A DNA stretch of 34,871 nucleotides from assembly GCA_026986785.1 (NCBI GenBank), contig JALSNW010000030.1:1-34871 (forward strand), written 5' to 3'. The notes beneath the pieces are model-generated. The model had not been told where the DNA came from and did no database searches. It saw only the letters and a list, made by a program, of their open reading frames with translations. Below are positions 11,999 to 34,438 of this stretch, in pieces (positions within the stretch are counted from its first letter, which is position 1; each line of letters begins with the position of its first letter). Position numbers and translations under genes: made by a program. This DNA is from Deltaproteobacteria bacterium (GTDB lineage: Bacteria; Desulfobacterota; Dissulfuribacteria; Dissulfuribacterales; QOAL01).

Positions 11999-12120
11999 GG
12001 AGACCTCCCTCAATTTATGGGTGTATTTTATGGCTATACATCAAGGTATCTGTTTAAAAATGAAACATATTTAACAAAAATATCCCCTTTTTTAAAGGCC
12101 TCACCTTCTGTTTTTTTGTA

Positions 12121-12146
12121 ATAAAAAAGGCCCCAAAAAGGGGCCT
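12121..12146 (-). terminator. intrinsic terminator after the secreted-protein pair
   Basis: On the minus strand a perfect 7-bp stem AGGCCCC/GGGGCCT with a TTTTT loop is followed directly by a run of Ts. It sits about 29 bases after the stop at 12175 and ends that operon before the exporter group begins. Confidence 0.85.
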
Positions 12147-12174: not shown

Positions 12175-13059
12175 TCAGAACCTGAATCTTTGGAGATGGA
12201 ATGTATTGCCAGACCAGTCCAGATTGGCCGTGCCATCTATATTCAGGGTAAAAGAGGCAGAACCAACTGCCGAGGCGGTAGGGCGATGATATTCAGAGGC
12301 ACCGATACTAGAGCCCCCTTGCCACTCCATCAAATCACATGAAAAATGATTATCCGAAGAATCCATGTCTGCCGAACAGGTCCACCACCATGGCAGCTTG
12401 TCTGAACGGTAATGGTACCAAGTCATGAAGACGGTTCCGCCCCTTGCTTCCATGAAAAAACCCATACCATTATAGTTCGAGTCATACCACCAGCCGTTTA
12501 TGTCCCGAGGGTCAAGGGCTCCGGGAGAGGCATCTTGCATGAACTTGGTAAGATGTTCTTTGAACACTTGCTGATCTTTCTCCTTTTTCTTCTTCCCACC
12601 TTGGGCAGAAGTAAAACCCTCTACTGTATAGGTGAGATCCGCATCATCCGAGGAATGAAAAACTATTGTCATTGTCCCCATCCTATAGCTCCTCGGGGCA
12701 TCATAGGCCGTGCCGAGAGGCCATCCAGTCCAATAATAGAGGGTCCCGGTGAATACATCTTCCTGGCTCTGCCGATCCTGGACGCTTGTCTCCACAGGTC
12801 CGTAGGCTGTGATCCAAAAGGGGAGCCTTGAATCATCATAGTATGTAAACATGGCAACAAATGCATTGTTTCCTTGGATCTCAACAGATACCCCTGTACC
12901 ATCCTTACCCTTAGTATACCACCAGCCAGATTTTCCATCAAAAGACAGGGCCTGATTAGGGGTAAAAAGAATGCCAACCACAACCAATGACAAGAAAAAA
13001 AGTAAGACTCTATCTCGTGTTTTCATATCTCGCACCATCCCTCCAGCATAACTCTTCAT
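12175..13059 (-). CDS. secreted protein with two Trp-rich modules, function unknown
   Basis: A 294-residue protein with an N-terminal signal (hydrophobic core LLFFLSLVVVGILF, about 18-31), so exported. Two similar modules follow. Module 1 (about 45-149) begins GWWYTKGKDGTGVSVEIQGN and module 2 (about 189-294) begins GWWYDSNYNGMGFFMEARGG. In both, Gly-Trp-Trp-Tyr leads to a strand, an aromatic run (FTYYDDSRLPFWITAYG or WYHYRSDKLPWWWTCSADM) and a late beta-rich segment. The pattern resembles Trp-rich repeats seen in exported proteins of unknown role. A lysine-rich linker (KKKKEK, 156-161) joins the modules. Start: ATG 13059 has GGAGG 6 bases before it and lies 16 bases after the preceding stop; ATG 13026 is the alternative. 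Confidence 0.75.
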   Translation of the reverse strand: MKSYAGGMVRDMKTRDRVLLFFLSLVVVGILFTPNQALSFDGKSGWWYTKGKDGTGVSVEIQGNNAFVAMFTYYDDSRLPFWITAYGPVETSVQDRQSQEDVFTGTLYYWTGWPLGTAYDAPRSYRMGTMTIVFHSSDDADLTYTVEGFTSAQGGKKKKEKDQQVFKEHLTKFMQDASPGALDPRDINGWWYDSNYNGMGFFMEARGGTVFMTWYHYRSDKLPWWWTCSADMDSSDNHFSCDLMEWQGGSSIGASEYHRPTASAVGSASFTLNIDGTANLDWSGNTFHLQRFRF

Positions 13060-13075
13060 ACAGATCCTCCATGTC

Positions 13076-13678
13076 CTATAGAACATAATCGCAATCCCCG
13101 CCTTCGTAATTAAACTGGGGACAATCAAGATTGACGTTGACCAATCCAGACTCACACCAGCCATTACTCATCATGCCAATCACATCTCCGACACTCACAC
13201 AGCGATTATTACAATCATAGACCCCATCCACACCACAGGAATTTCCTGGATAAACAGAGAGGGCACCACCCCCACCAGAGTAACAGTCACCATAGTCGTA
13301 ATTATACTGGGGACAGTTCAATACAAGACCATAGGTTCCATCGTCGCAGTAACCATCACCCAACCAGGCCTGGATCTGGGCCAGGGATGTGATATTCCCA
13401 ACACAATCCATTGCCGTAGCCTGTACACCACCTCCAGCGCAGTCGCCATTATCGTAGTTGTAGGTAGCACAGTTGAAATTTGGCCCATAGGTACCATCAT
13501 CGCAATAACCATCACCCAACCAAGACTGGGCCACATCTCCTGAAGTTATGTTCCCTGCACAATCCACAATGGTCATATAGATGGTAGCCGCTTGCAAATC
13601 CGCATTAGGGAAAAACAAAAAAATGACTCCAAAAATCCAAGAGCACAACCACCCTATCCGAATCGTCACTGTCCGCAT
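13076..13678 (-). CDS. secreted protein with three Lin-Notch-like (LNR-like) repeats
   Basis: A 200-residue protein. The signal peptide is about residues 1-30 (hydrophobic core LCSWIFGVIFLFF, then ADLQA before the likely cut). Three repeats of about 42 residues lie at 39-80, 91-132 and 155-196. Each begins Asp-Cys and ends Asn-Tyr-(Asp/Glu)-x-Gly-Asp-Cys, with GDGYCDDGTYG or SNGWCESG between. Each has four cysteines; classical LNR repeats have six. Repeats 1 and 2 are very alike; repeat 3 is diverged. The acidic pattern suggests calcium binding and the cysteines suggest disulfides. AGGAGG lies 7 bases before the ATG. It is the first gene of a two-gene operon with the Trp-rich secreted protein. 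Role unknown. Confidence 0.8.
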   Translation of the reverse strand: MRTVTIRIGWLCSWIFGVIFLFFPNADLQAATIYMTIVDCAGNITSGDVAQSWLGDGYCDDGTYGPNFNCATYNYDNGDCAGGGVQATAMDCVGNITSLAQIQAWLGDGYCDDGTYGLVLNCPQYNYDYGDCYSGGGGALSVYPGNSCGVDGVYDCNNRCVSVGDVIGMMSNGWCESGLVNVNLDCPQFNYEGGDCDYVL

Positions 13679-14202
13679 GATAAAACCTCCTATTAAGAAT
13701 CTTCGGCCACACTACAAAGGGGCGTTAACATTTTTCAGATATGTCAATAAAGCCCCTCACCAATAAAAACACTCTTCCAGATTGACCTCTTGAGCCAGAC
13801 AATCTGGTACCCTATCCCTGTCTAATGAAAAGGCCCTTGAGCCTGCCTTTTTGAAGACCCAAAGGCCCTGAAGATCTCTTTATAAAGTTATAAAGGGGGA
13901 ACTTGCCTCACAAGAGGCTAGTCCCAAAATTGATATGTATCCTTACAGGTGGCAATTCTACAACCTTATCTCATAAACAATAGCATGACTAATGACAGGG
14001 CTGGATAAGGCGAACACGAAATTGCCGAAAGTGCCGATTCTATCAAACAAGAAACAATCTGGCATTTCCCAGATCGTGAAAAAAATATTAATCGAAATGC
14101 CAATCTCACTGATTTTAAATAATATATCTACACTACTATCTACTACTATTTGTAGCTTCTTTCAATAAAGGGACTACTGATTGTTTGTACTTAATGTCTT
14201 GT
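13679..14202. other. 524-base A+T-rich intergenic region
   Basis: No gene is seen here. The stretch lies after lon and before the secreted-protein operon (both minus strand) and must hold the promoter of the latter. A TTGACA on the minus strand near 13743 lacks a good -10. Other items are a 9-bp inverted repeat at 14060-14102, a CTA-rich stretch at 14128-14155 and the direct repeat TATAAAGTTATAAAG near 13881-13895. Confidence 0.5.
14060..14102. repeat. 9-bp perfect inverted repeat downstream of lon
   Basis: TGGCATTTC at 14060-14068 and GAAATGCCA at 14094-14102 are exact reverse complements separated by 25 A/T-rich bases. It could be a weak terminator of lon (on the minus strand GATTGTTTCTTGTTT follows) or a protein-binding site. 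The long spacer argues against a standard terminator. Confidence 0.4.
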
Positions 14203-22166: not shown

Positions 22167-22721
22167 TTGACCAGTATATTCGAAGGCATAATCACATCGA
22201 AAACCCGAATAAACATCCTTATGCGCCTATTTCTCAACCCTGACCAGGAGGCATATCTCAGAGAGCTTTCCAAGGAATTTTCCACTCCTCCCAGTGTGAT
22301 CAAGGAAGAGCTAAAAAACCTTTCAAAAGTAGGCCTTTTGTCTCAGAAGAAAAATGGCAGGCAGATCTTTTATAGGGCCAACACAACCCATCCCCTCTTC
22401 CCAGAATTACACTCGATGGTGAAAAAAGCCCTTGGAATGGACAAGATCTTAGACAGTATCGTGTCCAGACTTGGCATGGTCAAGATAGCCTTTTTAATGG
22501 ATGACTACGCCAAAGGTAGGGATACAGGCATCATCGACCTGGTACTGGTGGGGGACATAGACCAGAAGAATCTTCAGGATTTGGTCAGAAAAACCGAACG
22601 TTATATAAAGAGAAAGATCAGGCCCCTTGTCCTTACAGAAAACGAATACGAACACATGAAAACAATATTCGATGAGAGACCTATATTGACACTGTGGACA
22701 TCTCTGCCAAACTCACAATAA
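22167..22721 (+). CDS. winged-helix regulator with a nucleotidyltransferase-like C-terminal domain
   Basis: A probable DNA-binding regulator of the polysaccharide genes. The N-terminal half is a winged helix (SKTRINILMRLFLNP, then AYLRELSKEFSTPPSVIKEELKNL and GRQIFYRANTTHPLFPEL). The C-terminal half (about 100-170) resembles a nucleotidyltransferase core, with DDYAKGRDTGIIDLVLVGD where active enzymes have Gly-Ser and Asp-x-Asp, so it is probably inactive and may sense a ligand. Proteins of this make-up often stand next to surface-polysaccharide genes. The frame is open back to GTG 22068 (217 residues). I prefer TTG 22167 (184 residues) because the family begins close to the SKTR segment, AAGG lies upstream, and the palindrome and promoter would otherwise lie inside the gene. 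The 3' end overlaps the flippase gene. Confidence 0.75.
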   Translation: MTSIFEGIITSKTRINILMRLFLNPDQEAYLRELSKEFSTPPSVIKEELKNLSKVGLLSQKKNGRQIFYRANTTHPLFPELHSMVKKALGMDKILDSIVSRLGMVKIAFLMDDYAKGRDTGIIDLVLVGDIDQKNLQDLVRKTERYIKRKIRPLVLTENEYEHMKTIFDERPILTLWTSLPNSQ

Positions 22722-24061
22722 AGAAACTCTGGGGCCATGAAACGTTCCGGCACTATTTCGCCAATACTTCCTGGCTCATGGGGGACCAATTTTTCAGGAT
22801 GGGCATCTCCTTTGTGGTCGGTGTTTATGTGGCCCGTTATCTCGGTCCGGAAAGGCTGGGCATATTGAACTATGCCATCAGCTTTACAGGTCTTTTCAAG
22901 GAGATCGCTACCCTTGGGCTTGACAGGATAGCAGTAAGGGAATTGGTCCTTAAAGAAAACAAAAAAGAGCAGCTGATGGGGACTATCTTTTGGCTTAAAC
23001 TAAGTGGGGCCATCCTGGCCTTTTCTCTGATAGCCATCACAATTTCTTTCATGAATGACGATGCCCTTTCCAAGTTGATCGTCATAATAGTTGCCTGTAG
23101 CCTTCTCTTTCAGACCTTCATGGTCATAGATTTTTATTTCCAGTCAAAGGTGTTATCCAAGTACGCAGCCATTGCCCAGAGCACCCAGGCCATAATATCT
23201 GCACTGATAAAGGTCTTTTTGGTGCTGATCCAGGCCCCTGTCCTATATTTTGCCATGGTTTTACTATTGGACAATGCGATCCTTGCAATAGGGCTCCTTT
23301 TTTTCTACACAAGGACCAAGGGAAACAACTTCCGTTTTTTTACATTCAGGAACTTCGACTGGTTCCTGGCAAAAGACCTTATGAAAGATGCATGGCCCCT
23401 CATTCTTTCAGGCCTTGCAGTCTTGATATACATGAGGATAGACCAGGTAATGCTGAAACAGATGATCGACAGCCAGGCAGTTGGACAATATGCCGTTGCT
23501 GTTCGTCTAAGCGAGACCTGGTACTTCATTCCTGCCCTCATCCTGCAATCGGTTTTTCCTGCCATAGTGCTTCTGAAAAAGGAGAATGCGGCCACCTATC
23601 AGGTGAGGCTTCAACAGCTCCATGACATCCTCTCACTTATGGCCTTTACAATAGCCATAATAACAACATTCTTTGCCAAGGACATTGTGGGATTCCTTTT
23701 CGGCCCTAAATTCTTGGAGGCCGCCTCCATACTCACTGTACATATCTGGGCAGGTATATTTGTATTTCCTGGCAATATAAGGGCCAACCTGATAATCGTA
23801 GAACACAAACAGATGGTTGCCCTGGTCTTTAGGGTCATTGGTGCCATATTGAATGTGGGCCTAAACCTATTGTTGATCCCACGCTATGGACCTGTGGGAG
23901 CTGCTTGGGCCACCCTGGCATCTTATACCGTACCAGTCTGTCTAATCTCTTTTTTTGATCCCTTGATAAAGACTACAATGATAATGACATTCAAGGCCTA
24001 CTTTTTACCCATTCGATTACTGCTGTACCGAAAAGCAATCTATGAAGTAGCAAGGATATGA
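22694..24061 (+). CDS. Wzx-type polysaccharide flippase (MOP superfamily)
   Basis: An inner-membrane protein of 455 residues with about 12-14 hydrophobic helices, expected to move lipid-linked oligosaccharide units from the cytoplasmic to the periplasmic face. The first part, WLMGDQFFRMGISFVVGVYVARYLGPERLGILNYA, is the typical Wzx/RfbX beginning; a second family block with ILTVHIWAGIFVFPGN and GPVGAAWATLASY lies in the last third. It starts at GTG 22694, overlapping the regulator by 28 bases; no nearby in-frame ATG exists. It overlaps the lyase gene by 4 bases. The transported glycan cannot be read from the sequence. Confidence 0.88.
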   Translation: MDISAKLTIKKLWGHETFRHYFANTSWLMGDQFFRMGISFVVGVYVARYLGPERLGILNYAISFTGLFKEIATLGLDRIAVRELVLKENKKEQLMGTIFWLKLSGAILAFSLIAITISFMNDDALSKLIVIIVACSLLFQTFMVIDFYFQSKVLSKYAAIAQSTQAIISALIKVFLVLIQAPVLYFAMVLLLDNAILAIGLLFFYTRTKGNNFRFFTFRNFDWFLAKDLMKDAWPLILSGLAVLIYMRIDQVMLKQMIDSQAVGQYAVAVRLSETWYFIPALILQSVFPAIVLLKKENAATYQVRLQQLHDILSLMAFTIAIITTFFAKDIVGFLFGPKFLEAASILTVHIWAGIFVFPGNIRANLIIVEHKQMVALVFRVIGAILNVGLNLLLIPRYGPVGAAWATLASYTVPVCLISFFDPLIKTTMIMTFKAYFLPIRLLLYRKAIYEVARI

Positions 24062-26502
24062 ACTATCTTAACCCTCTCAAAAACAGACTTAGAAGGCTTG
24101 CCAGCACAAGGCCGGACTGGGCTCTGTCCGTTTACAGTAAACTACCACCAGGATTAAAGAATGCGCTGAGACAAACCCTTGACCTGCCATCTCATCAAAA
24201 TGACATCGAGACATTGGAGCGGTTACAGCTTCTTCCCCTCGATTCTGCCTGGTCTGAGGCCATATTCGCACCATTCCACGACCCAGCCATATCCCATAGC
24301 CTCCCCATAGAATTCTATTCCATAGGTGCCAAAGGATGCAGGGTAGAATTTTTTTGGTGCTGGACCCTGCTGTGCTGGGAAACCTGTTGCAAGGGAGAAG
24401 ACGCAGCAGTTCTTAAGCTGCAAGCAAACCTCGATTGCTCTGGATTTGACACATTGCTTCTTTGTCTGACCATGCCGCACGACACCCTTTTAAGGGTTGA
24501 ATTTAAACAAGATGGCAAGCATCACTGTTCAAAACAAACCTATAGGGGAGAGGGCACAAGGATGGAAATCGAACTGCCTTTAGGAAAGGGCAGGTTAGAG
24601 GAGATAAGGCTTATCTTCCAGTCGGAATCTCCAGATCCTAAAAAGATATTTCTTTCCTGGTTTGGCCTAAAAAATAGCCTCCTTTCAGAGGCAATACTCT
24701 GCCACGAGGCACACTTTGCAGCGGATTGGCCTGGCCTAATAAGGCATCCTTCCCTATGGAATGAGCCACGTTTTGCCATTGGTCTTTTATTTGATCCCAA
24801 GGATCTTGGTTGGCTTGCAGAGAAAAGGCTCCTGCCTGGTTGGGACAAACACTTCTCCTTCCTCCTCAAAAAGGCCAATGAATACATGAAACGCAATCCA
24901 GAAGATGACCTTGGAGACTATCTACCCAGCAACGACAGCCGTTTTTTAAGGGCAAGACAAAGGGGAAAGACTCCTTATTATTTTGAGGCATTAGTCTTGG
25001 GATTTGTTGGCCTCGTGAACAATGATCAGGCGATGATCATCCATGCATTGAGATACCTGATGTGCATGCTCCACACCCGCCACTGGACCCAATCCGCTGA
25101 AAGCAGGCTTACCGGAAGCACCTGGGACCAACGCTGCTTTCTGGAAGAATTGACTGCCACCAGTGTCAGTCTACTTGCGGACTGGTTTTACTTTGCCCTT
25201 ACCAAAAGGGCCATGCAACTCGTACATCAATCTCTATGGGACAAAGGACTTTCCGTAATAGAACGAGACCTGATGAAATATTCGTATCTTCAGAGGATCA
25301 ACCAGGGCTCAGTATTTTGCAGGGCGCGTATACTTGCTGGCCTACACCTGGAAAGGGCATGGCCAAACATGGGGGATTATGTGGAACGTGCATTTTCGGA
25401 CATGAGAAGAAACCTCCGCAACTATATGGAACCAGATGGTGGTACCCATGAGGGTATCGGCTATTTTTGCCAGACACTTCATGCAGTTCTTCCTGCCATG
25501 ATAGCTTACTCAAGGGCTAGAGATAAGGGCCTGGGGCAAATGATAAGATCCCACTTTTCAAATTGCGAAAATTATATCACTGCCATGTCGAGCATCACAC
25601 CTGGCAAGGCGATTCCAGAGGGGGATTGCCGTACGAATCGCTTCTGTGGAGATGCCATTTCGGTGCTTGCAAGGTTCTTCCCAGGCAGCCCATATGAAAA
25701 ACTACTGATGCCCGCAATCGACTCTGGTAGTCTATTCCAGGTTACCGGCACCCTTACGGATAGTGGCGGAATAACAGGATTCATCTATGGTCCCGACCAT
25801 ATTGGCGAACCAGGCTGTATCGTGCCCACCTTTACTATACTGAAAAAGACAGGCCACATGACAAGTATGAGGGAGAAACAAGGCCACAAGATAGGGCTAC
25901 ACATGGTGGGTTCAAAGCCTTATCCAAGTCATTCCCACTATGACAAGGGTGCAATCGTATTAGAAATAGACTCTACTCCTGTCTTTATTGACAGAGGTAT
26001 GGTGGAATATTATTTCGCTGACTCTCAGGAGCTAAAACGCTCCTACATGCACAATGTTATCACACCGGTAGGGGATCAAATGACCTATCCAGACCAAAGC
26101 CCACCCACCAGGGCCATAATACCCAAAGGTAAGGGAGATGCCCTATCTGTTCATGTAGAAATAGATCTTACCAATGTCTGGCAAGGGCAGATGCATCATT
26201 GTAAGAGGCGTGTAGATTCCGAGGATCCAGACGAATTGATCATCACTGACTCGGGCAGATTGCTGCAAAAAGGCCGGATTGCCTTTCATCTCCATTCTCT
26301 CTTCCCCTTTGAAATCCAGACAAAAGACAAAATTTTCCTTCAGGCCAGAGATTCCACTCTTTCCATAGAAGCAGATTGGGCCCAAGAGGTCCTGGCCCGT
26401 AGTCGTTCTATAGATCTAAAGCACAGAGGTTGCTATCACCTTGCGATTATTTCCTGCCAGATCAAAGAATTCCATCTTGTAACCAGGATAAAAAGGATAT
26501 GA
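24058..26502 (+). CDS. heparinase II/III-family polysaccharide lyase-like protein
   Basis: An 814-residue protein. The N-terminal part (about 75-230) looks beta-rich. A helical domain (about 280-560) carries DGGTHEGIGY with His-464, Glu-465 and Tyr-469, and a C-terminal beta-sandwich (about 590-814) carries SHSHYDKGAIVLEID with His-625 and His-627. In family lyases, which cut uronic-acid glycans by beta-elimination, a Tyr and His residues at these positions serve catalysis and metal binding. No signal peptide is visible, which is unusual for a lyase meant to act outside; it may act in the cytoplasm or at the membrane. Such genes are common in bacterial polysaccharide clusters. It overlaps the flippase by 4 bases (ATGA). 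Confidence 0.82.
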   Translation: MNYLNPLKNRLRRLASTRPDWALSVYSKLPPGLKNALRQTLDLPSHQNDIETLERLQLLPLDSAWSEAIFAPFHDPAISHSLPIEFYSIGAKGCRVEFFWCWTLLCWETCCKGEDAAVLKLQANLDCSGFDTLLLCLTMPHDTLLRVEFKQDGKHHCSKQTYRGEGTRMEIELPLGKGRLEEIRLIFQSESPDPKKIFLSWFGLKNSLLSEAILCHEAHFAADWPGLIRHPSLWNEPRFAIGLLFDPKDLGWLAEKRLLPGWDKHFSFLLKKANEYMKRNPEDDLGDYLPSNDSRFLRARQRGKTPYYFEALVLGFVGLVNNDQAMIIHALRYLMCMLHTRHWTQSAESRLTGSTWDQRCFLEELTATSVSLLADWFYFALTKRAMQLVHQSLWDKGLSVIERDLMKYSYLQRINQGSVFCRARILAGLHLERAWPNMGDYVERAFSDMRRNLRNYMEPDGGTHEGIGYFCQTLHAVLPAMIAYSRARDKGLGQMIRSHFSNCENYITAMSSITPGKAIPEGDCRTNRFCGDAISVLARFFPGSPYEKLLMPAIDSGSLFQVTGTLTDSGGITGFIYGPDHIGEPGCIVPTFTILKKTGHMTSMREKQGHKIGLHMVGSKPYPSHSHYDKGAIVLEIDSTPVFIDRGMVEYYFADSQELKRSYMHNVITPVGDQMTYPDQSPPTRAIIPKGKGDALSVHVEIDLTNVWQGQMHHCKRRVDSEDPDELIITDSGRLLQKGRIAFHLHSLFPFEIQTKDKIFLQARDSTLSIEADWAQEVLARSRSIDLKHRGCYHLAIISCQIKEFHLVTRIKRI

Positions 26503-26529
26503 ACAAAGGGACAAGAGGGAGATAGACTC

Positions 26530-28401
26530 ATGTGCGGTATCTTTGGATTTATTGGCAACATCGATGCTCACAAGGCACAATACTGTATTGATCTCCTTGC
26601 CCATAGAGGGCCAGATGGCTCCGGGCTCGTCCAACTAAGAGGGGCAACCCTTGCCCACAGAAGACTTGCCATACTGGATTTATCCGAACGGGCTGGCCAA
26701 CCCATGTCCTTTGGGCATGACCGCTATTGGATCACCTACAATGGTGAGATCTACAATTTCCTCGAATTACGCCAACAATTGGAGGGAAGAGGTTACGAGT
26801 TCAAGACAGATTCTGATACCGAGGTCGTACTTGCCTCCTTTGTAGAATGGCGGGAAGATTGCCTGTATAGGTTCAATGGCATGTGGGCATTTGCAATCTG
26901 GGACTGCAGAGAACAAACTCTTTTTCTCAGCAGGGACAGGTTTGGCAAAAAACCCCTGTTTTACCTGGAATTGCCAGGTAGGGGATTTGCTTTTGCCTCT
27001 GAGATGAAGGCCCTATTCCCCTTGATGGACCAAGTAGTGGCAAATATGGCCTTGGTTGGTCAAGTCCGGCTGGTATTCCAGTATGAATCTACGGAACAAT
27101 GTGTAATAAAGGGAATAAAACGCTTACGACCAGGTCATTTTGCTTGGCTGCAAAACGGCAGGCTGAAATCCTCAAGATATTGGTGCACCCTGGACCATCT
27201 TGTAAAGGTACCCACAAGCTATGATGAACAGGTTGATCAACTCAGGGAACTCTTCCTCGACGCATGCAGGTTGAGAATGAGAAGTGATGTATCCATAGGC
27301 ACTGCCTTGAGTGGAGGTCTTGATTCAAGCTCTACGATTTCGGCAGTTGCACACCTGGCAAAAGAAAAGACCGAACACCGAATGAGCACAGATTGGCAAC
27401 ATGCCTACATTGCCTCATTTCCAGATAGTCCATTGGATGAAGCAAGATATGCCAAAATGGTGACAGACCACCTCCAAATACCCGCTACATTCCTAAAGAT
27501 AAATCCAATCGATGCCTTGGACAGATTGGATGATTTCTTCTATCTCTTCGAAGAGATATACATAACATTACCCATACCCTTCATGTTGCTCTATAGTGCC
27601 ATGAGAGAAGACGGGACAAAGGTGACCTTGGATGGCCATGGTGCAGACGAATGTTTTGCTGGATATGATTTCGACTACCTCTATGCACTCTTGGATGCTG
27701 GTCTAAAACCAAGGGCCGTGGCCTCGGTGCTGGACACAAAATATGCCTCTGCACCCAAGGACTTTCAAGGACCTACCATGCCACCAAAACCAATATTTTG
27801 GTTGAAATGGCGTCTTAATGAAGCATTGGAAGGGTGGCTAGGCAAGGAAACCCACCCCAGAGACAGCAGCCATCCTGCGTGGGAGAATCTGGACCATTTG
27901 ACAAGAAGGCTTTATGTCTCCACCCACGAAACCATACTCCCCACCCTTCTCAGAAACTATGACCGTTATGCCATGGCCAACAGTGTAGAGATCCGCATGC
28001 CCTTTATGGACTATAGAATCATTCAGTTTGCATTCTCCCTGCCCTGGACATCTAAGATACGTAGAGGCCTGTCAAAGGCCATAGTCCGTGATGCCATGGC
28101 CTGCTTCATGCCTCGTCAAGTTGCATTCAGGCGTGACAAGATAGGTTTTAATTCCCCCGTGGTCGACTGGATGAAAGGCCCCTTGAAGGGCTTCTTCCTC
28201 GACATCATCTCTTCCTCTTCCTTCAAGGAATGCCAATTGATAGATGCCAACAAGGTTGAACAAAAAATTTTACAGGTAATTAGGGCAGAGAATCCGTCCT
28301 TCAAAGAGGCTGAGGAGGCATGGACCATGTTGAGCCCCTATTTATGGGAAAGGGCAGTACTAAAAAAAGCGAGACGCATAGCGCACGGCAAAGGGCAATG
28401 A
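26530..28401 (+). CDS. asnB: asparagine synthase (glutamine-hydrolysing)-type amidotransferase
   Basis: AsnB-type enzymes use glutamine-derived ammonia and ATP to amidate a carboxylate, classically aspartate. Cys-2 (MCGIFGF) is the glutaminase nucleophile; LAHRGPDGSG and NGEIYN belong to the N-terminal glutaminase domain (1-200). The ATP pyrophosphatase loop SGGLDSS lies at 261-267, and HGADECFAGYDF follows. The 623-residue length is typical of AsnB proteins in polysaccharide clusters. A GAGGGAGA ribosome binding site precedes the ATG. Given its neighbours it may amidate a sugar acid rather than aspartate, as proposed for similar proteins in O-antigen loci; this is inference. It overlaps the next gene by 4 bases. 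Confidence 0.88.
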   Translation: MCGIFGFIGNIDAHKAQYCIDLLAHRGPDGSGLVQLRGATLAHRRLAILDLSERAGQPMSFGHDRYWITYNGEIYNFLELRQQLEGRGYEFKTDSDTEVVLASFVEWREDCLYRFNGMWAFAIWDCREQTLFLSRDRFGKKPLFYLELPGRGFAFASEMKALFPLMDQVVANMALVGQVRLVFQYESTEQCVIKGIKRLRPGHFAWLQNGRLKSSRYWCTLDHLVKVPTSYDEQVDQLRELFLDACRLRMRSDVSIGTALSGGLDSSSTISAVAHLAKEKTEHRMSTDWQHAYIASFPDSPLDEARYAKMVTDHLQIPATFLKINPIDALDRLDDFFYLFEEIYITLPIPFMLLYSAMREDGTKVTLDGHGADECFAGYDFDYLYALLDAGLKPRAVASVLDTKYASAPKDFQGPTMPPKPIFWLKWRLNEALEGWLGKETHPRDSSHPAWENLDHLTRRLYVSTHETILPTLLRNYDRYAMANSVEIRMPFMDYRIIQFAFSLPWTSKIRRGLSKAIVRDAMACFMPRQVAFRRDKIGFNSPVVDWMKGPLKGFFLDIISSSSFKECQLIDANKVEQKILQVIRAENPSFKEAEEAWTMLSPYLWERAVLKKARRIAHGKGQ

Positions 28402-29327
28402 ACTGTCTGAAACCAGTCGCCCCAGTGGTACTTTTCACTTATAACCGTATTGATCATACAATGCAGACCATTCATGCCCTATCGGAGAATCTGTTGGCCC
28501 CTTACACTGACCTCATTGTCTATTCAGATGGGCCAAGAAAAGATAGCGACACCAAGAAAATCCAAGACGTTCGAACCTTTTTGAAAGAAATCAATGGGTT
28601 CAAATCGGTAAGAATCATCGAACAGGAACGAAATAGGGGCCTGGCCAGATCCATTATCAGTGGTATCAGTGCCACTTTCAAGTCCTACGACAGGGTCATT
28701 GTCATGGAAGACGATATAGTCACAAGTCCCCTGTTCCTCTCTTTCATGAATGACGCCCTCAACCTATACGAGGATGAAAAGAAGGCCTGGCATATAAGTG
28801 GATGGAATTATCCCATTGACACAGATAACCTTCCCTGTGCTTTTTTTTGGCGGGTGATGAACTGCTGGGGCTGGGCGACATGGGCAAACCGCTGGTGTCA
28901 TTTCAGAAAAGAACCAGCCAGGCTTGTTCGGCAATGGAATAAGCGACGTATCAAGAGGTTCAATCTTGACGGGGTCCACGATTTTTGGTCCCAAGTAGTC
29001 TCCAACTTCCATGGCCGCATGGATACCTGGGCCGTATTCTGGTATGCCACTATATTTGAGAACCAAGGTCTATGTCTGAATCCCACCAAGAGCTATGTTC
29101 GGAATATAGGCCTAGATGGAACTGGCATCCACTGTAAAAGATGTAGCCCTTTAGAAAAACAATCACTGAACATGAAGCCTTGCAAGGACTTCCCAGTGAG
29201 GATAGAGGAGGATTGCAACGCAGTGGAAAGGATAAAAAGATATCATGAAAGGCTCAAAAGACCGCTTTATTCAAGAATAAAGAACAAAATAATGGAACTC
29301 TTTTCCCCAAAACCAGCCGTGAGATGA
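28398..29327 (+). CDS. glycosyltransferase (GT-A fold)
   Basis: A 309-residue cytoplasmic or membrane-associated sugar transferase. The first strand is PVVLFTYNRIDHTMQTIHAL, then YSDGPRKDSD, the ERNRGLARSIISGI segment, and the metal-binding acidic triplet in VMEDDIVTSPLFLSFMNDAL. Later come ISGWNYP and WGWATWANRW, typical of this group of nucleotide-sugar transferases in polysaccharide clusters. The start is ATG 28398, which overlaps the asnB stop as ATGA and follows AAAGGG; an earlier in-frame start at 28320 would add 26 residues inside asnB. The donor and acceptor are unknown. Confidence 0.85.
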   Translation: MNCLKPVAPVVLFTYNRIDHTMQTIHALSENLLAPYTDLIVYSDGPRKDSDTKKIQDVRTFLKEINGFKSVRIIEQERNRGLARSIISGISATFKSYDRVIVMEDDIVTSPLFLSFMNDALNLYEDEKKAWHISGWNYPIDTDNLPCAFFWRVMNCWGWATWANRWCHFRKEPARLVRQWNKRRIKRFNLDGVHDFWSQVVSNFHGRMDTWAVFWYATIFENQGLCLNPTKSYVRNIGLDGTGIHCKRCSPLEKQSLNMKPCKDFPVRIEEDCNAVERIKRYHERLKRPLYSRIKNKIMELFSPKPAVR

Positions 29328-30571
29328 AGGTCGTACATCTCAATTACAGTGACTCCTTGGGAGGGGCCTCTTTGGCAGCCTTCCGTATTCACATGGCACT
29401 TCGTGCCCATGGAGTCTATTCCAGAATGTTTGTAAACAGCGCATGTTCTGGAGATGGCTCAGTGACAGGCCCTGAAAGGCGTATTGAAAGATTGACCACC
29501 CTGCTTCGGCCCTTGCCCGCAAACCTTGTCATGAAGTGTCTCAAGACCGACAACAAGAATCTTCACTCACCTGCAATCATACCTTCTTTCTGGCATAGAC
29601 GCCTCAATAGATCGGACTTTGATATAGTGCACCTCCACTGGATCAACAATGAAATGATGTCCATACCGGACATTGGCAGAATAAGAAAACCCATTGTATG
29701 GACCCTCCACGACATGTGGGCCTTTTGCGGTGCAGAACACTACACGGAAGACAACCGATGGAAATACGGCTACTTTCGTGATGATCGGCCCAAATATGAA
29801 TCTGGCCCCGACCTCAACAGATGGGTATGGAACAGAAAGGTACGGCACTGGGATAGGCCAATGCATATTGTTACGCCAAGCCGGTGGCTTGCCCATTGCG
29901 TAAAACAAAGTGCCCTCATGCATAATTGGCCAGTGGAGGTGATTCCAAACTGTATCGATATACATAGATGGATTCCTGTGGAGAAATCGTTGGCCAAGAC
30001 CCTCCTGGGCCTGGCCGAAGATATACCAGTTATACTCTTTGGCGCCCAAGGCGGATCGAGGGACAGAAGAAAAGGCCATGATCTGCTCCAAAAAGCCGTG
30101 GCCAGACTGAAAGACCGGATGAAGAGATTACAGATCGTGATATTTGGAGAATCAACGCCTGAACATCCACAAGAGATGGGCTATCCAACATGGTATGCAG
30201 GACACCTTTATGATGAGATCAGCCTACGCATCCTCTATAGCGCAGCAGATGTAATGATTATCCCATCGCGCCAAGACAATCTTCCCAATACCGGCATCGA
30301 GGCCCATGCATGTGGCACCCCTATAGTAGGCTTTGATATCGGTGGCCTTTCTGATATTGTGGGTCATGAAAAGACAGGTTACCTTGCAAAACCCTTTGAT
30401 CCATCTGAACTGGCCCACGGGATCGAGTGGGTCGTAATAGATGACAACCGCCACAAGAGCATGTGCAAAGAGGCCCGAAGCCGTGCTGTCTCCCTGTGGA
30501 CAAACGACAAAATCGCCACGCAGTATAAGTGCCTCTATGAAAAGATAATACAGCACAAATATGATGATTGA
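29324..30571 (+). CDS. glycosyltransferase family 4
   Basis: A GT-B retaining glycosyltransferase of 415 residues. The N-terminal domain begins KVVHLNYSDSLGGASLAAFR, with HLHWINNE and the PIVWTLHDMWAFCGAEHY segment. The C-terminal nucleotide-sugar-binding domain has GHDLLQKAVARLK, then EAHACGTPIVGFDIGGLSD, where the glutamate at the start is the usual EX7E-type position. The long insert with HYTEDNRWKYG resembles WcaC-like transferases of colanic-acid type clusters. The ATG overlaps the previous stop (ATGA). The sugar is not determinable. Confidence 0.88.
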   Translation: MKVVHLNYSDSLGGASLAAFRIHMALRAHGVYSRMFVNSACSGDGSVTGPERRIERLTTLLRPLPANLVMKCLKTDNKNLHSPAIIPSFWHRRLNRSDFDIVHLHWINNEMMSIPDIGRIRKPIVWTLHDMWAFCGAEHYTEDNRWKYGYFRDDRPKYESGPDLNRWVWNRKVRHWDRPMHIVTPSRWLAHCVKQSALMHNWPVEVIPNCIDIHRWIPVEKSLAKTLLGLAEDIPVILFGAQGGSRDRRKGHDLLQKAVARLKDRMKRLQIVIFGESTPEHPQEMGYPTWYAGHLYDEISLRILYSAADVMIIPSRQDNLPNTGIEAHACGTPIVGFDIGGLSDIVGHEKTGYLAKPFDPSELAHGIEWVVIDDNRHKSMCKEARSRAVSLWTNDKIATQYKCLYEKIIQHKYDD

Positions 30572-30601
30572 AATGAGATGAGACCAAGAAGACAAACAGA
30601 A

Positions 30602-31753
30602 ATGAAAACCAACATGGACGATAAAAAAGTAGCGTTGATAACAGGCATAACTGGACAAGATGGGGCATATCTCGCAGAATTACTCCTCAACAAGGGATAT
30701 ATAGTACACGGCATAAAAAGGAGGGCCTCACTTTTCAACACCGACAGGGTGGATCACCTCTACCAGGATCCCCATGCACCGGATAGACGATTCATCCTCC
30801 ACTATGGCGACCTGACCGACTCCACCAATCTGATCCGCATACTCCAAGAGGTTCAGCCAGATGAACTATATAACCTGGCTGCCCAAAGCCATGTGGCCGT
30901 ATCCTTTGAAAGTCCAGAATATACCGCAAATGCCGACGGTCTGGGGACACTGAGACTCCTCGAGGCCATACGCATACTGGGCCTGAAAGAGAAGACGAGA
31001 TTTTATCAGGCCTCCACGTCTGAACTCTTTGGCAAGGTCAGCCAAACGCCACAGGATGAGAACACGCCTTTTTACCCCCGCTCTCCATATGGGGTTGCAA
31101 AGCTCTACGGCTATTGGATAACCGTAAACTACAGGGAGGCCTATGGCCTCTATGCCTGCAATGGCATCCTCTTCAACCATGAATCGCCCCTCAGGGGTGA
31201 AACATTTGTTACCCGCAAGATCACAAGGGCAGTGGCCAGGATTTGTCTTGGCCTCCAGGACTGCCTCTATCTTGGCAATCTGGATGCCAAGCGTGACTGG
31301 GGCCATGCAAGGGATTTCGTGGAGGCACAGTGGAAGATCTTGCAACAACCAGCACCAGACGACTTTGTCATTGCCACAGGACGCCAGCATTCTGTTAGAG
31401 AATTTTGTGAAACAGCCTTCGGGATGGCAGGCATTGAGATCGAATGGAAGGGTACGGGCATAGATGAACAAGGTTTTGCCTCCTCCATATCCGAGACCCA
31501 GATTACATCTGGACTCAAGATAAAGGTCAGACCTGGTGCCAAAATCATAGCGATTGACAGACGTTATTTCAGGCCGGCTGAAGTGGATACCCTTGTAGGA
31601 GATGCCTCAAAGGCCAAAAAGAAACTTGGATGGTCGGCCAAGATAGGTTTTGAAGAGATGGTAGAAGAAATGATCCGCTTCGATTTCGACCTAGCCCGCC
31701 GGGACTCTTTGTGCCAGAAAGCGGGTTTCAGGGTGTATAACCACAATGAATAA
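30602..31753 (+). CDS. gmd: GDP-mannose 4,6-dehydratase
   Basis: Converts GDP-D-mannose to GDP-4-keto-6-deoxy-D-mannose, the first step to GDP-L-fucose and some other deoxysugars. It is an SDR enzyme with the cofactor motif GITGQDG at 15-21 and the family block [19 protein letters not shown]. The active-site STSELFGKV segment follows, as does Tyr-x3-Lys in [25 protein letters not shown] and the [18 protein letters not shown] segment are also typical. I place the start at ATG 30602 (383 residues); ATGs at 30578 and 30614 are possible and no ribosome binding site decides. It overlaps fcl by 8 bases, so the product can pass directly to the next enzyme. Confidence 0.95.
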
Positions 31754-32702
31754 GGATGCCAAGATATTTGTAGCAGGGCACACCGGCCTTGTGGGTTCAG
31801 CTATTGTCAGGGCCCTTGATGCGGCTGGTTATGGAAACCTCCTTCTTAAGAGACACAAAGAGCTGGACTTGACATGCCAAGCGGATGTCTCGGCCTTTTT
31901 CAAAAAAGAAAATCCAGAATATGTATTCTTGGCAGCTGCCAAGGTGGGAGGCATAGTTGCAAACAATACATATCCTGCCGATTTCATATATGACAACGTC
32001 ATGATAGAGGCCAATGTCATAAGGGCATCACACAGCACTGGGGTCAAGCGGCTGCTGTTTCTCGGAAGCTCGTGCATATATCCCAAGCTTGCACCTCAAC
32101 CAATCAGGGAAGAGGCCCTTTTGACCGGCCCCTTGGAACCAACCAACGAACCCTATGCCATCGCAAAGATAGCAGGCATCAAGCTGTGTGAAGCGTTCAA
32201 TCGTCAGTTTGGCACGGATTTTCGTTCTGTCATGCCCACTAATCTCTATGGCCCTGGAGACAACTTTCACCCTGTCAATAGCCATGTCATCCCAGGTATG
32301 CTAAGGAGGTTCCACGAGGCGAGGACAAAGGGGAAGGACCAGGTGGAGGTCTGGGGTACTGGAAATGTTAGGAGGGAATTCCTCTTTGTAGACGACCTTG
32401 CCAATGCATGCCTATTTGTAATGCAATTGGACAAGGCCGTTTACCAGGACCAGACCTCAGCCATGTGCTCACATATCAATATTGGCTATGGAGAGGATAT
32501 CTCCATACGGGAGCTTGCGGCTATAATTTCCCAGGTGACAGGTTTCAGGGGACGGATAGTCTTTGATACCTCCAAGCCAGATGGGACCCCGAGGAAACTC
32601 CTGGACATCTCAAAGATCCAGAAACTTGGCTGGAGCCCGTCAGTGGATTTGAAACAAGGCCTTGAGATCACCTATAGGTGGTTCTTAAATAATGTGCTCT
32701 AA
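31746..32702 (+). CDS. fcl: GDP-L-fucose synthase
   Basis: Epimerises and reduces GDP-4-keto-6-deoxymannose to GDP-L-fucose with NADPH. The 318-residue SDR protein has [14 protein letters not shown] at 11-24 for the cofactor, [19 protein letters not shown], the catalytic-region [10 protein letters not shown] and Tyr-x3-Lys in [30 protein letters not shown], a strong family signature, follows, then [16 protein letters not shown]. With gmd it completes the GDP-fucose route, so a fucosyltransferase is expected among the neighbouring glycosyltransferases. It overlaps the next gene by 11 bases. Confidence 0.96.
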
Positions 32703-33546
32703 TCCCTTTCCCCAAATCTCCATAGTAATAGCAGTAAAAAATGCCCATAATAGCCTGCAAAAATGTATAGACAGCATCCGATGCCAGACATATCAGGACA
32801 TGGAACTCTTGATCATGGATGGAGGCTCTGAAGATGGCACAGTGGAGATCATCAATAAAAACAGCCAATACATAGCCTACTGGGAATCCAGGCAAGACAG
32901 GGGGATTGCCCACGCATGGAACAAGGCCCTAAGGCATACCAAGGGCCAATGGATACTCTTTATAGGGGCAGACGACACACTCAGAGATAAACTGGTCCTG
33001 GAAAAGGCAGCCACATCACTCATTCAGGCATCGAGGCTGGGGAAGAGGCTTGCCTATGGAAAGGTGGAATTGAAGGATCAAAAGGGCAATCACTTACAGG
33101 TGCTGGGCCAGGACTGGGGAAAAATAAAAGAGAGGTTTTTTACTGAAAGAGACGAGATTCCTCATCCAGCTTGCTTTCATCACTCAAGTCTATTCGAGGA
33201 CTATGGTCCCTTTGACCAGGAATTTCTCATTGCAATGGACTATGAATTTCTAATAAGGGTCCTGTTAAGAGAGGAACCCTTTTTTATGGACGAAATCATA
33301 ACTACTATGGCCTTTGGCGGCCTCAGTCACCATCCTGCCACGCTCTTACAAACGCACAATGAGGCCCATATGGCCTTGTTAAGACATGGTCTGACCTGTA
33401 GGAATGTGAAGTTTACAATCAACCATCTCGCCTATAAGATCCTTGGAGCCTTGCTTTTCTTTGTAGGTGAAAAGGCAGCCAGATGGTATCTGGACACACT
33501 ACGTATCGTGTCGGGGAAATCACGCGTCTGGACCATTGATGGTTAG
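32692..33546 (+). CDS. family 2 glycosyltransferase
   Basis: A GT-A transferase of 284 residues. It opens [22 protein letters not shown], then [15 protein letters not shown], the [15 protein letters not shown] segment and the metal-binding acidic motif in [12 protein letters not shown]. The later [18 protein letters not shown] corresponds to the acceptor/catalytic region. A group of similar enzymes lies next to fucose genes and in colanic-acid type clusters, but the sugar cannot be named. The ATG overlaps fcl by 11 bases. The last 30 residues or so include a hydrophobic stretch ([16 protein letters not shown]) that may touch the membrane. Confidence 0.88.
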
Positions 33547-34438
33547 TGTTATAGTACCTACATACAACAGGCCTCATCTCATAGGCGACTCCATTGAAAG
33601 CATTCTTGCCCAGTCGATCCAGGATATTGAGATCATAGTGATCGATGGCTCAACTAACGATTCCACCAGAGATACCATAGACAATATAAGTGATCCAAGG
33701 ATAAGATATAAAAGGATAGAGAACAGATCTGCTGCATCTTCCAGAAATGTGGGATTGAGCATGGCACAAGGGGAATTCATCGCCTTCAATGACGACGATG
33801 ACATCTGGTTGCCAGAAAAGCTCGAGCATCAGATCAAATTGATCGATGCTCACCTGGATTGCCCCATCTGCTTCTGCGCCTTTGAGAAAAAGAGGGGGAA
33901 CAGGACCCAGATCATCCCTGACAAAATGGAGACAGGATGCGCCCTTTTATTCAGCAAACTACTCTTCAGGAACTTTATAGGACTGCCAACACTATTGATC
34001 AGGAAACAGCTCCTTGAAAAGATCCACTTTGACGAGCAATTGACATGTCTGGAAGACTGGGATTTTTCCTTGTCATTGGCCAGGGAAAACCAAATAGCCT
34101 ATCTCGACCAGGTAATGGTCCACGTGAGAGATACGCCGAACAGCGTGAACAAGGCATCCCATGCGAAAAAGGCCGAAAGCTATAAGAGAATATATACAAA
34201 ATTCCGATCGGAAATAGAGAAATATCCGCATATAGAGGCCAAGCACCAGTTGAGTATCGGCTCCAATCTCTGCCTGTCCGGCCAGCTCCTTGAGGGACGG
34301 AGATACTTGACAAAGGCTGCCCGCCTCTCACCCCTGTCTCCTATCGTATGGATGGCCCTCATTGCCACCTATCTTGGAGAAAGAGGTTATAGAGAACTAT
34401 TCAAATTTTTTGAAAAAATAACCAGCCGTGAACCATAA
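33539..34438 (+). CDS. family 2 glycosyltransferase
   Basis: A 299-residue GT-A enzyme starting [20 protein letters not shown], then IVIDGSTNDSTRDTI, SAASSRNVGLSMAQGEFIAF and the acidic NDDDDIWLPEKLEHQ. A CLEDWDFSLSLARE segment follows. The C-terminal 60 residues are helical. The start is ATG 33539, which overlaps the stop of the previous gene by 8 bases; an earlier frame opening at 33467 lies wholly inside that gene. Substrate unknown. Confidence 0.88.
   Translation: MVSVIVPTYNRPHLIGDSIESILAQSIQDIEIIVIDGSTNDSTRDTIDNISDPRIRYKRIENRSAASSRNVGLSMAQGEFIAFNDDDDIWLPEKLEHQIKLIDAHLDCPICFCAFEKKRGNRTQIIPDKMETGCALLFSKLLFRNFIGLPTLLIRKQLLEKIHFDEQLTCLEDWDFSLSLARENQIAYLDQVMVHVRDTPNSVNKASHAKKAESYKRIYTKFRSEIEKYPHIEAKHQLSIGSNLCLSGQLLEGRRYLTKAARLSPLSPIVWMALIATYLGERGYRELFKFFEKITSREP

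Follow-up and report, generated by a model that had tools for sequence, protein, structure and literature searches.

The window analyzed here, a stretch of 34,871 nucleotides, carries on its minus strand between positions 12175 and 13678 a two-gene unit encoding a protein with LNR-like repeats and a protein made of two tryptophan-rich modules, referred to below as the LNR and GWWY proteins (Table 1). Several elements of this unit had been recognized in a preliminary description made from the letters alone, and they hold on closer analysis: both genes have the good ribosome binding sites claimed for them, and the strong terminator appears as a hairpin-like AGGCCCC-TTTTT-GGGGCCT followed by TTTTT, at 12146–12128 on the minus strand and approximately 28 nt past the GWWY stop. 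The 16 bases reported between the genes are correct as the distance from the LNR stop to the GWWY start if the latter is the ATG at 13059; another possible start, the ATG at 13026, gives a protein of 283 aa (P0002). Both proteins are probably exported, as had also been proposed, judging from signal peptides that were called by eye from a hydrophobic core and an A-x-A-like site. In the LNR protein the signal peptide, by eye, covers about residues 1–30, and the mature part is acidic with a net charge of −20. Further along the window, at 22694–34438 on the plus strand, there is a probable polysaccharide biosynthesis cluster including a flippase-like Polysacc_synt protein, an asparagine synthase with GATase, and glycosyltransferases.

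Table 1. Features of the LNR–GWWY unit (window positions) and loci at which two types of GWWY protein adjoin.
Feature	Position	Strand	Basis or remark
LNR-like repeat protein gene (P0001, 200 aa)	13076..13678	(-)	ORF reading; orthologues G304, G306, G302, G305
GWWY protein gene, two modules, 294 aa	12175..13059	(-)	start ATG 13059; relatives family-wide
RBS AGGAGG, LNR gene	13686..13691	(-)	7 nt upstream of ATG; sequence read directly
RBS GGAGG, GWWY gene	13066..13070	(-)	6 nt upstream of ATG 13059; sequence read directly
Intrinsic terminator of the unit	12118..12146	(-)	hairpin and T-run
LNR-like repeat 1, 4 Cys	13439..13564	(-)	repeat alignment
LNR-like repeat 2, 4 Cys	13283..13408	(-)	repeat alignment
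LNR-like repeat 3, 6 Cys, residues 148-196	13091..13237	(-)	form present in the G270 fusion with GWWY
GWWY module 1 with linker	12538..12930	(-)	internal repeat alignment
GWWY module 2, ending in C-terminal RFxF	12178..12498	(-)	internal repeat alignment
Five type-B/type-A adjacent loci	L054:6260-9487; L063:8247-10791; L065:6731-9341; L120:4949-8202; L051:4082-7426	same strand within locus	

That the LNR and GWWY reading frames are real genes follows from conservation of the proteins at saturated synonymous distance. Between genomes dN was 0.15–0.43 for both proteins and dS was saturated or greater than 2, so that dN/dS was mostly not computable owing to saturation; from this sequence comparison both proteins look to be under constraint. 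The preliminary description had called the proteins unfamiliar, and Pfam, NCBIfam, PHROGs, and PDB give them no assignment: P0001 and P0002 returned chance-level matches only against these collections (for PDB, its sequences), even at E 10, and profiles of their relatives did no better against PDB than the single proteins. No relatives of either protein were found by tblastn in plasmids and phages, and a scan of viral contigs with the GWWY alignment was likewise empty. The GWWY modules may have a wider kinship with proteobacterial repeats of the WW-NPAESG type, but a consensus of these repeats gave no match either. Structure prediction had been suggested as a check, and models were made, but AlphaFold run without deep alignments reached a mean pLDDT of only 49.7 for the GWWY protein and 34.9 for the LNR protein. 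The low-confidence GWWY model shows each module as approximately seven antiparallel strands. Fold comparison of this model gave a best Z of 6.6 and weak matches to bradavidin (Z 5.5), nitrophorin, and TbpB barrels (Z 5–6.5). With Z below 7 and model confidence low, this resemblance is not taken to indicate kinship with avidin-like or TbpB barrels.

Three four-cysteine repeats had been ascribed to the LNR protein, which is right for repeats 1 and 2, but the third has six cysteines. The core motif [DN]Gx-C-[DES]..C..[DE]xGDC is present in three copies, with at least one copy arising in 2 of 100,000 shuffles. P0001 gave no match to the Pfam Notch model PF00066 even at E 10, and thus did not reach the family cut-off, against 126 bits for the LNRs of Notch1 as a control. 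A lipoprotein from another family of the phylum (L091:1411-1863 on G399:C115), in which a Thr/Ser-rich linker comes after one LNR-like repeat, forms a sequence bridge to Pfam Notch: it was found at E 2e-7 by the profile of the window repeats and scored 15.4 bits to PF00066, under the cut-off. Aligned directly by hhalign, the window repeat profile matched Notch LNRs at E 5e-5 with a probability of 67.6%, the Notch1 letters having been confirmed by PF00066. Because of this sub-cut-off bridge and the hhalign result, the repeats are regarded as LNR-like, divergent, and formally outside PF00066. Set against the six cysteines and three disulfides that define that family, repeats 1 and 2 fall short with four cysteines each, and repeat 3 has six but at other spacings.

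All three repeats have D or N at −3 relative to the GxC cysteine; relative to the last cysteine, they have D or E at −4 and D at −1. In the literature on Notch LNRs these positions are Ca2+ ligands. From conservation of these positions the repeats are putative Ca2+-binding elements. Four cysteines per repeat are no obstacle to such binding, since the LNRs of PAPP-A, resolved by cryo-EM, form one or two disulfides only and still bind Ca2+ (PMC9579167); the two-disulfide repeats among them, LNR1 and LNR3, are paired 1-3/2-4 (PMC9579167). The LNR proteins of the intact pairs discussed below, from the window's own assembly (G000) and from G304, G306, and G302, contain 3, 4, 5, and 5 repeats, respectively, a variation in line with copy-number change in a repeat protein. 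No publication on LNR proteins of bacteria, or on the LNR and GWWY motifs, came up in literature searches. The LNR profile also found an 828-aa protein on a viral contig (L087:4830-7316; IMG/VR 3300030329_001933), in which one LNR-like repeat (WVGDGYCDDG...FNYDGGDC) is followed by many GCTDPxAFNY..SC repeats and then by an apparent T9SS-type C-terminal end; close relatives of its LNR repeat occur on six other viral contigs.

The two GWWY modules seen in the preliminary description are true internal repeats, with a Smith-Waterman score of 108 between them against a shuffled mean of 29.7 (sd 4.9, maximum 52) and a BLAST E of 4e-9. Together they constitute a domain of approximately 230–255 aa, which was present in 12 of the 19 genomes surveyed from the bacterial family. 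When the profile survey was extended to one phylum (approximately 395 genomes), matches came from 5 of 395 sampled genomes, all from two genera of the window's family. In the complete type-A proteins examined (about 28), the domain was always C-terminal with 0–5 residues beyond it and commonly an RFxF ending. What precedes it varies: a subtilase (Pfam E 2e-27 and 9e-30), FN3 domains after a repeat region that is beta-propeller-like by eye, several families without a Pfam match, one LNR repeat, or a signal peptide alone. In the domain tree, the GWWY clades track these N-terminal architectures. By its sequence distribution, GWWY is a lineage-specific, uncatalogued C-terminal module on many predicted secreted proteins, of which P0002 represents a free-standing copy. 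There is also a more distant stand-alone type, type B, which adjoins a type-A protein on the same strand at five loci (G000:C48, G270:C63, G290:C51, G305:C17, and G270:C35), an arrangement that suggests module–module partnering.

One explanation for such a module could be binding to carbohydrate or cell wall, in which case the LNR–GWWY pair would be an adhesin with exposed Trp and Tyr residues acting on polysaccharide and the LNR protein on proteins or Ca2+. The modules are indeed very aromatic (13 Trp, 14 Tyr, and 20 Phe in the 283 aa of P0002), they accompany a subtilase and further extracellular proteins, which is frequent for binding modules, and tandem duplication is common among the latter. 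Yet binding modules usually vary in position, while every complete type-A protein has GWWY at its very C-terminal end, and no carbohydrate-binding family matched, so that this explanation appears unlikely.

Alternatively, GWWY could be a C-terminal export or sorting signal in the role of a T9SS CTD or PEP-CTERM, read and possibly processed by some machine of which the stand-alone copies would be a part or docking unit. This would be consistent with the strictly C-terminal position, the shared RFxF ending, and the diversity of N-terminal cargo, as well as with the 5–12 matches per genome found in most carriers, in two genera only, and with the second stand-alone type beside type-A carriers at five loci. 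However, two full modules with a total of about 230 aa would make a long signal, the stand-alone copies would have no cargo to direct, and no machine was found to co-occur. GspD, the T2SS secretin, was matched in 16 of the 19 family genomes, both with and without GWWY, and gave no match above cut-off in G000, a 99% complete assembly, which reflects either missing sequence or a type II secretion system that has been lost. Exosortase (TIGR02602) had no match in the GWWY carriers G000, G270, G205, and G302. A search of the 19 genomes for SprA/Sov also gave no match, but neither did its positive control. Co-occurrence of T2SS, T9SS, and exosortase with GWWY thus singled out no exporter. A role as a sorting signal is considered rather unlikely.

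Whether the LNR and GWWY genes belong together is best judged from their neighborhoods in the 19 family genomes. Significant LNR relatives occurred in six of these. Intact, adjacent, same-strand pairs were found in G000, G304, G306, and G302, with gaps of 16–46 nt; three of the four come from a single genus, where plain inheritance could account for them, and the G302 pair is from a second genus. The G270 genome has a single 356-aa frame without stops that combines one six-cysteine LNR repeat with a GWWY domain; in the domain tree this GWWY domain clusters with the orthologues of P0002 (81/84), on a long branch and with moderate placement. Linkage of LNR and GWWY is thus well supported, and the co-occurrence that the preliminary description proposed to look for is borne out by four adjacent pairs and one fusion. 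Rather than homologues dispersed without a shared neighborhood or falling into known families, the outcomes that would have counted against the pair, there was adjacency, fusion, and no library assignment. The idea of a pair does need amendment: the two are adjacent or fused in relatives, but the GWWY domain is also widespread on other secreted proteins, often without LNR. The calcium-dependent adhesion or matrix role put forward in that description is at this stage conjecture.

The G302 pair is informative for the history of the unit. Its LNR and GWWY proteins have their closest relatives in G306, from the window's genus (74% and 78%, respectively), whereas the flanking DnaK-related gene is of the kind usual in its own genus (64–73% within it, 59–61% to the window's genus), and a clade uniting the G302 GWWY with its own genus was rejected (p-AU 0.02). 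For these reasons the pair most likely passed between genera, into G302, as one unit. In G305, a member of the window's genus, the LNR gene reaches the contig end, and the locus may be broken, possibly by a mobile element. G305:C66 (L116:1722-2385) carries a truncated GWWY orthologue (residues 200–283) near a Mu-type transposase C-terminal domain. In G205, G297, and G301 a GWWY orthologue occurs with no LNR, so that LNR is optional and the pair is not obligatory. Such orthologues without LNR might indicate that the two are unrelated secreted proteins sharing a transcript by chance, and small exported proteins do often cluster, but the fusion in G270 and the joint transfer into G302 make this highly improbable.

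The reading we prefer, tentatively and at slightly less than even expectation, is that of a linked extracellular pair in which GWWY serves as a module for display or assembly and holds the LNR protein, a Ca2+-stabilized repeat protein. The GWWY protein would consist only of the two-module, probably all-beta, aromatic-rich domain, and that domain would keep secreted proteins on the cell surface or within an assembly outside the cell, whether by sorting, anchoring, or module–module docking. The LNR protein would be a chain of three to five small, disulfide-bonded, Ca2+-stabilized repeats with Gly-rich linkers, forming the displayed and interacting part, and held by GWWY as a separate chain or, in G270, as the same chain. 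Gene structure, repeats, adjacency, joint occurrence, fusion, and C-terminal reuse of GWWY were observed directly; export, Ca2+ binding, physical contact between the two proteins, and surface display are inferred. Fusion and joint transfer lead to the prediction that the LNR and GWWY proteins bind each other. It is doubtful that this extends to an undescribed display system in two genera, in which type-A domains would dock with stand-alone GWWY and the LNR protein would be a Ca2+-dependent cargo shown in trans by a dedicated GWWY partner.

What is new here is the combination of divergent LNR repeats with an uncatalogued, lineage-specific C-terminal module, with known kinds behind both; it provides a bacterial form of a Ca-binding repeat familiar chiefly from Notch and PAPP-A, linked to a domain outside the catalogues. 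Elsewhere in bacteria, shared C-terminal domains have led to whole secretion and display systems, T9SS and PEP-CTERM among them. The GWWY domain may similarly offer a handle on how the bacteria that carry it build their surface.

Comparison with known systems shows both likeness and difference. To avidin- or lipocalin-like up-and-down barrels the GWWY modules are similar in their seven or so predicted antiparallel strands, but there is no sequence match and the Z scores are beneath the range that means relationship. Like T9SS C-terminal domains, GWWY is conserved at the C-terminus of many secreted proteins that are otherwise unrelated, proteases among them. There is again no sequence match, and GWWY also stands alone and always has two modules. 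With Notch PF00066 and PAPP-A LNRs the window repeats share the form of short tandem cysteine repeats with [DN]GxC...C...[DE]xGDC, in which the Ca-ligand positions are kept. They differ from Notch LNRs in a longer spacing (C-x10-C-x9-C), in having only four cysteines in repeats 1 and 2 and a differently placed extra cysteine pair in repeat 3, and in that the protein is bacterial and a stand-alone chain with Gly-rich linkers. Their four cysteines would fit the 1-3/2-4 pairing of LNR1 and LNR3 in PAPP-A (PMC9579167).
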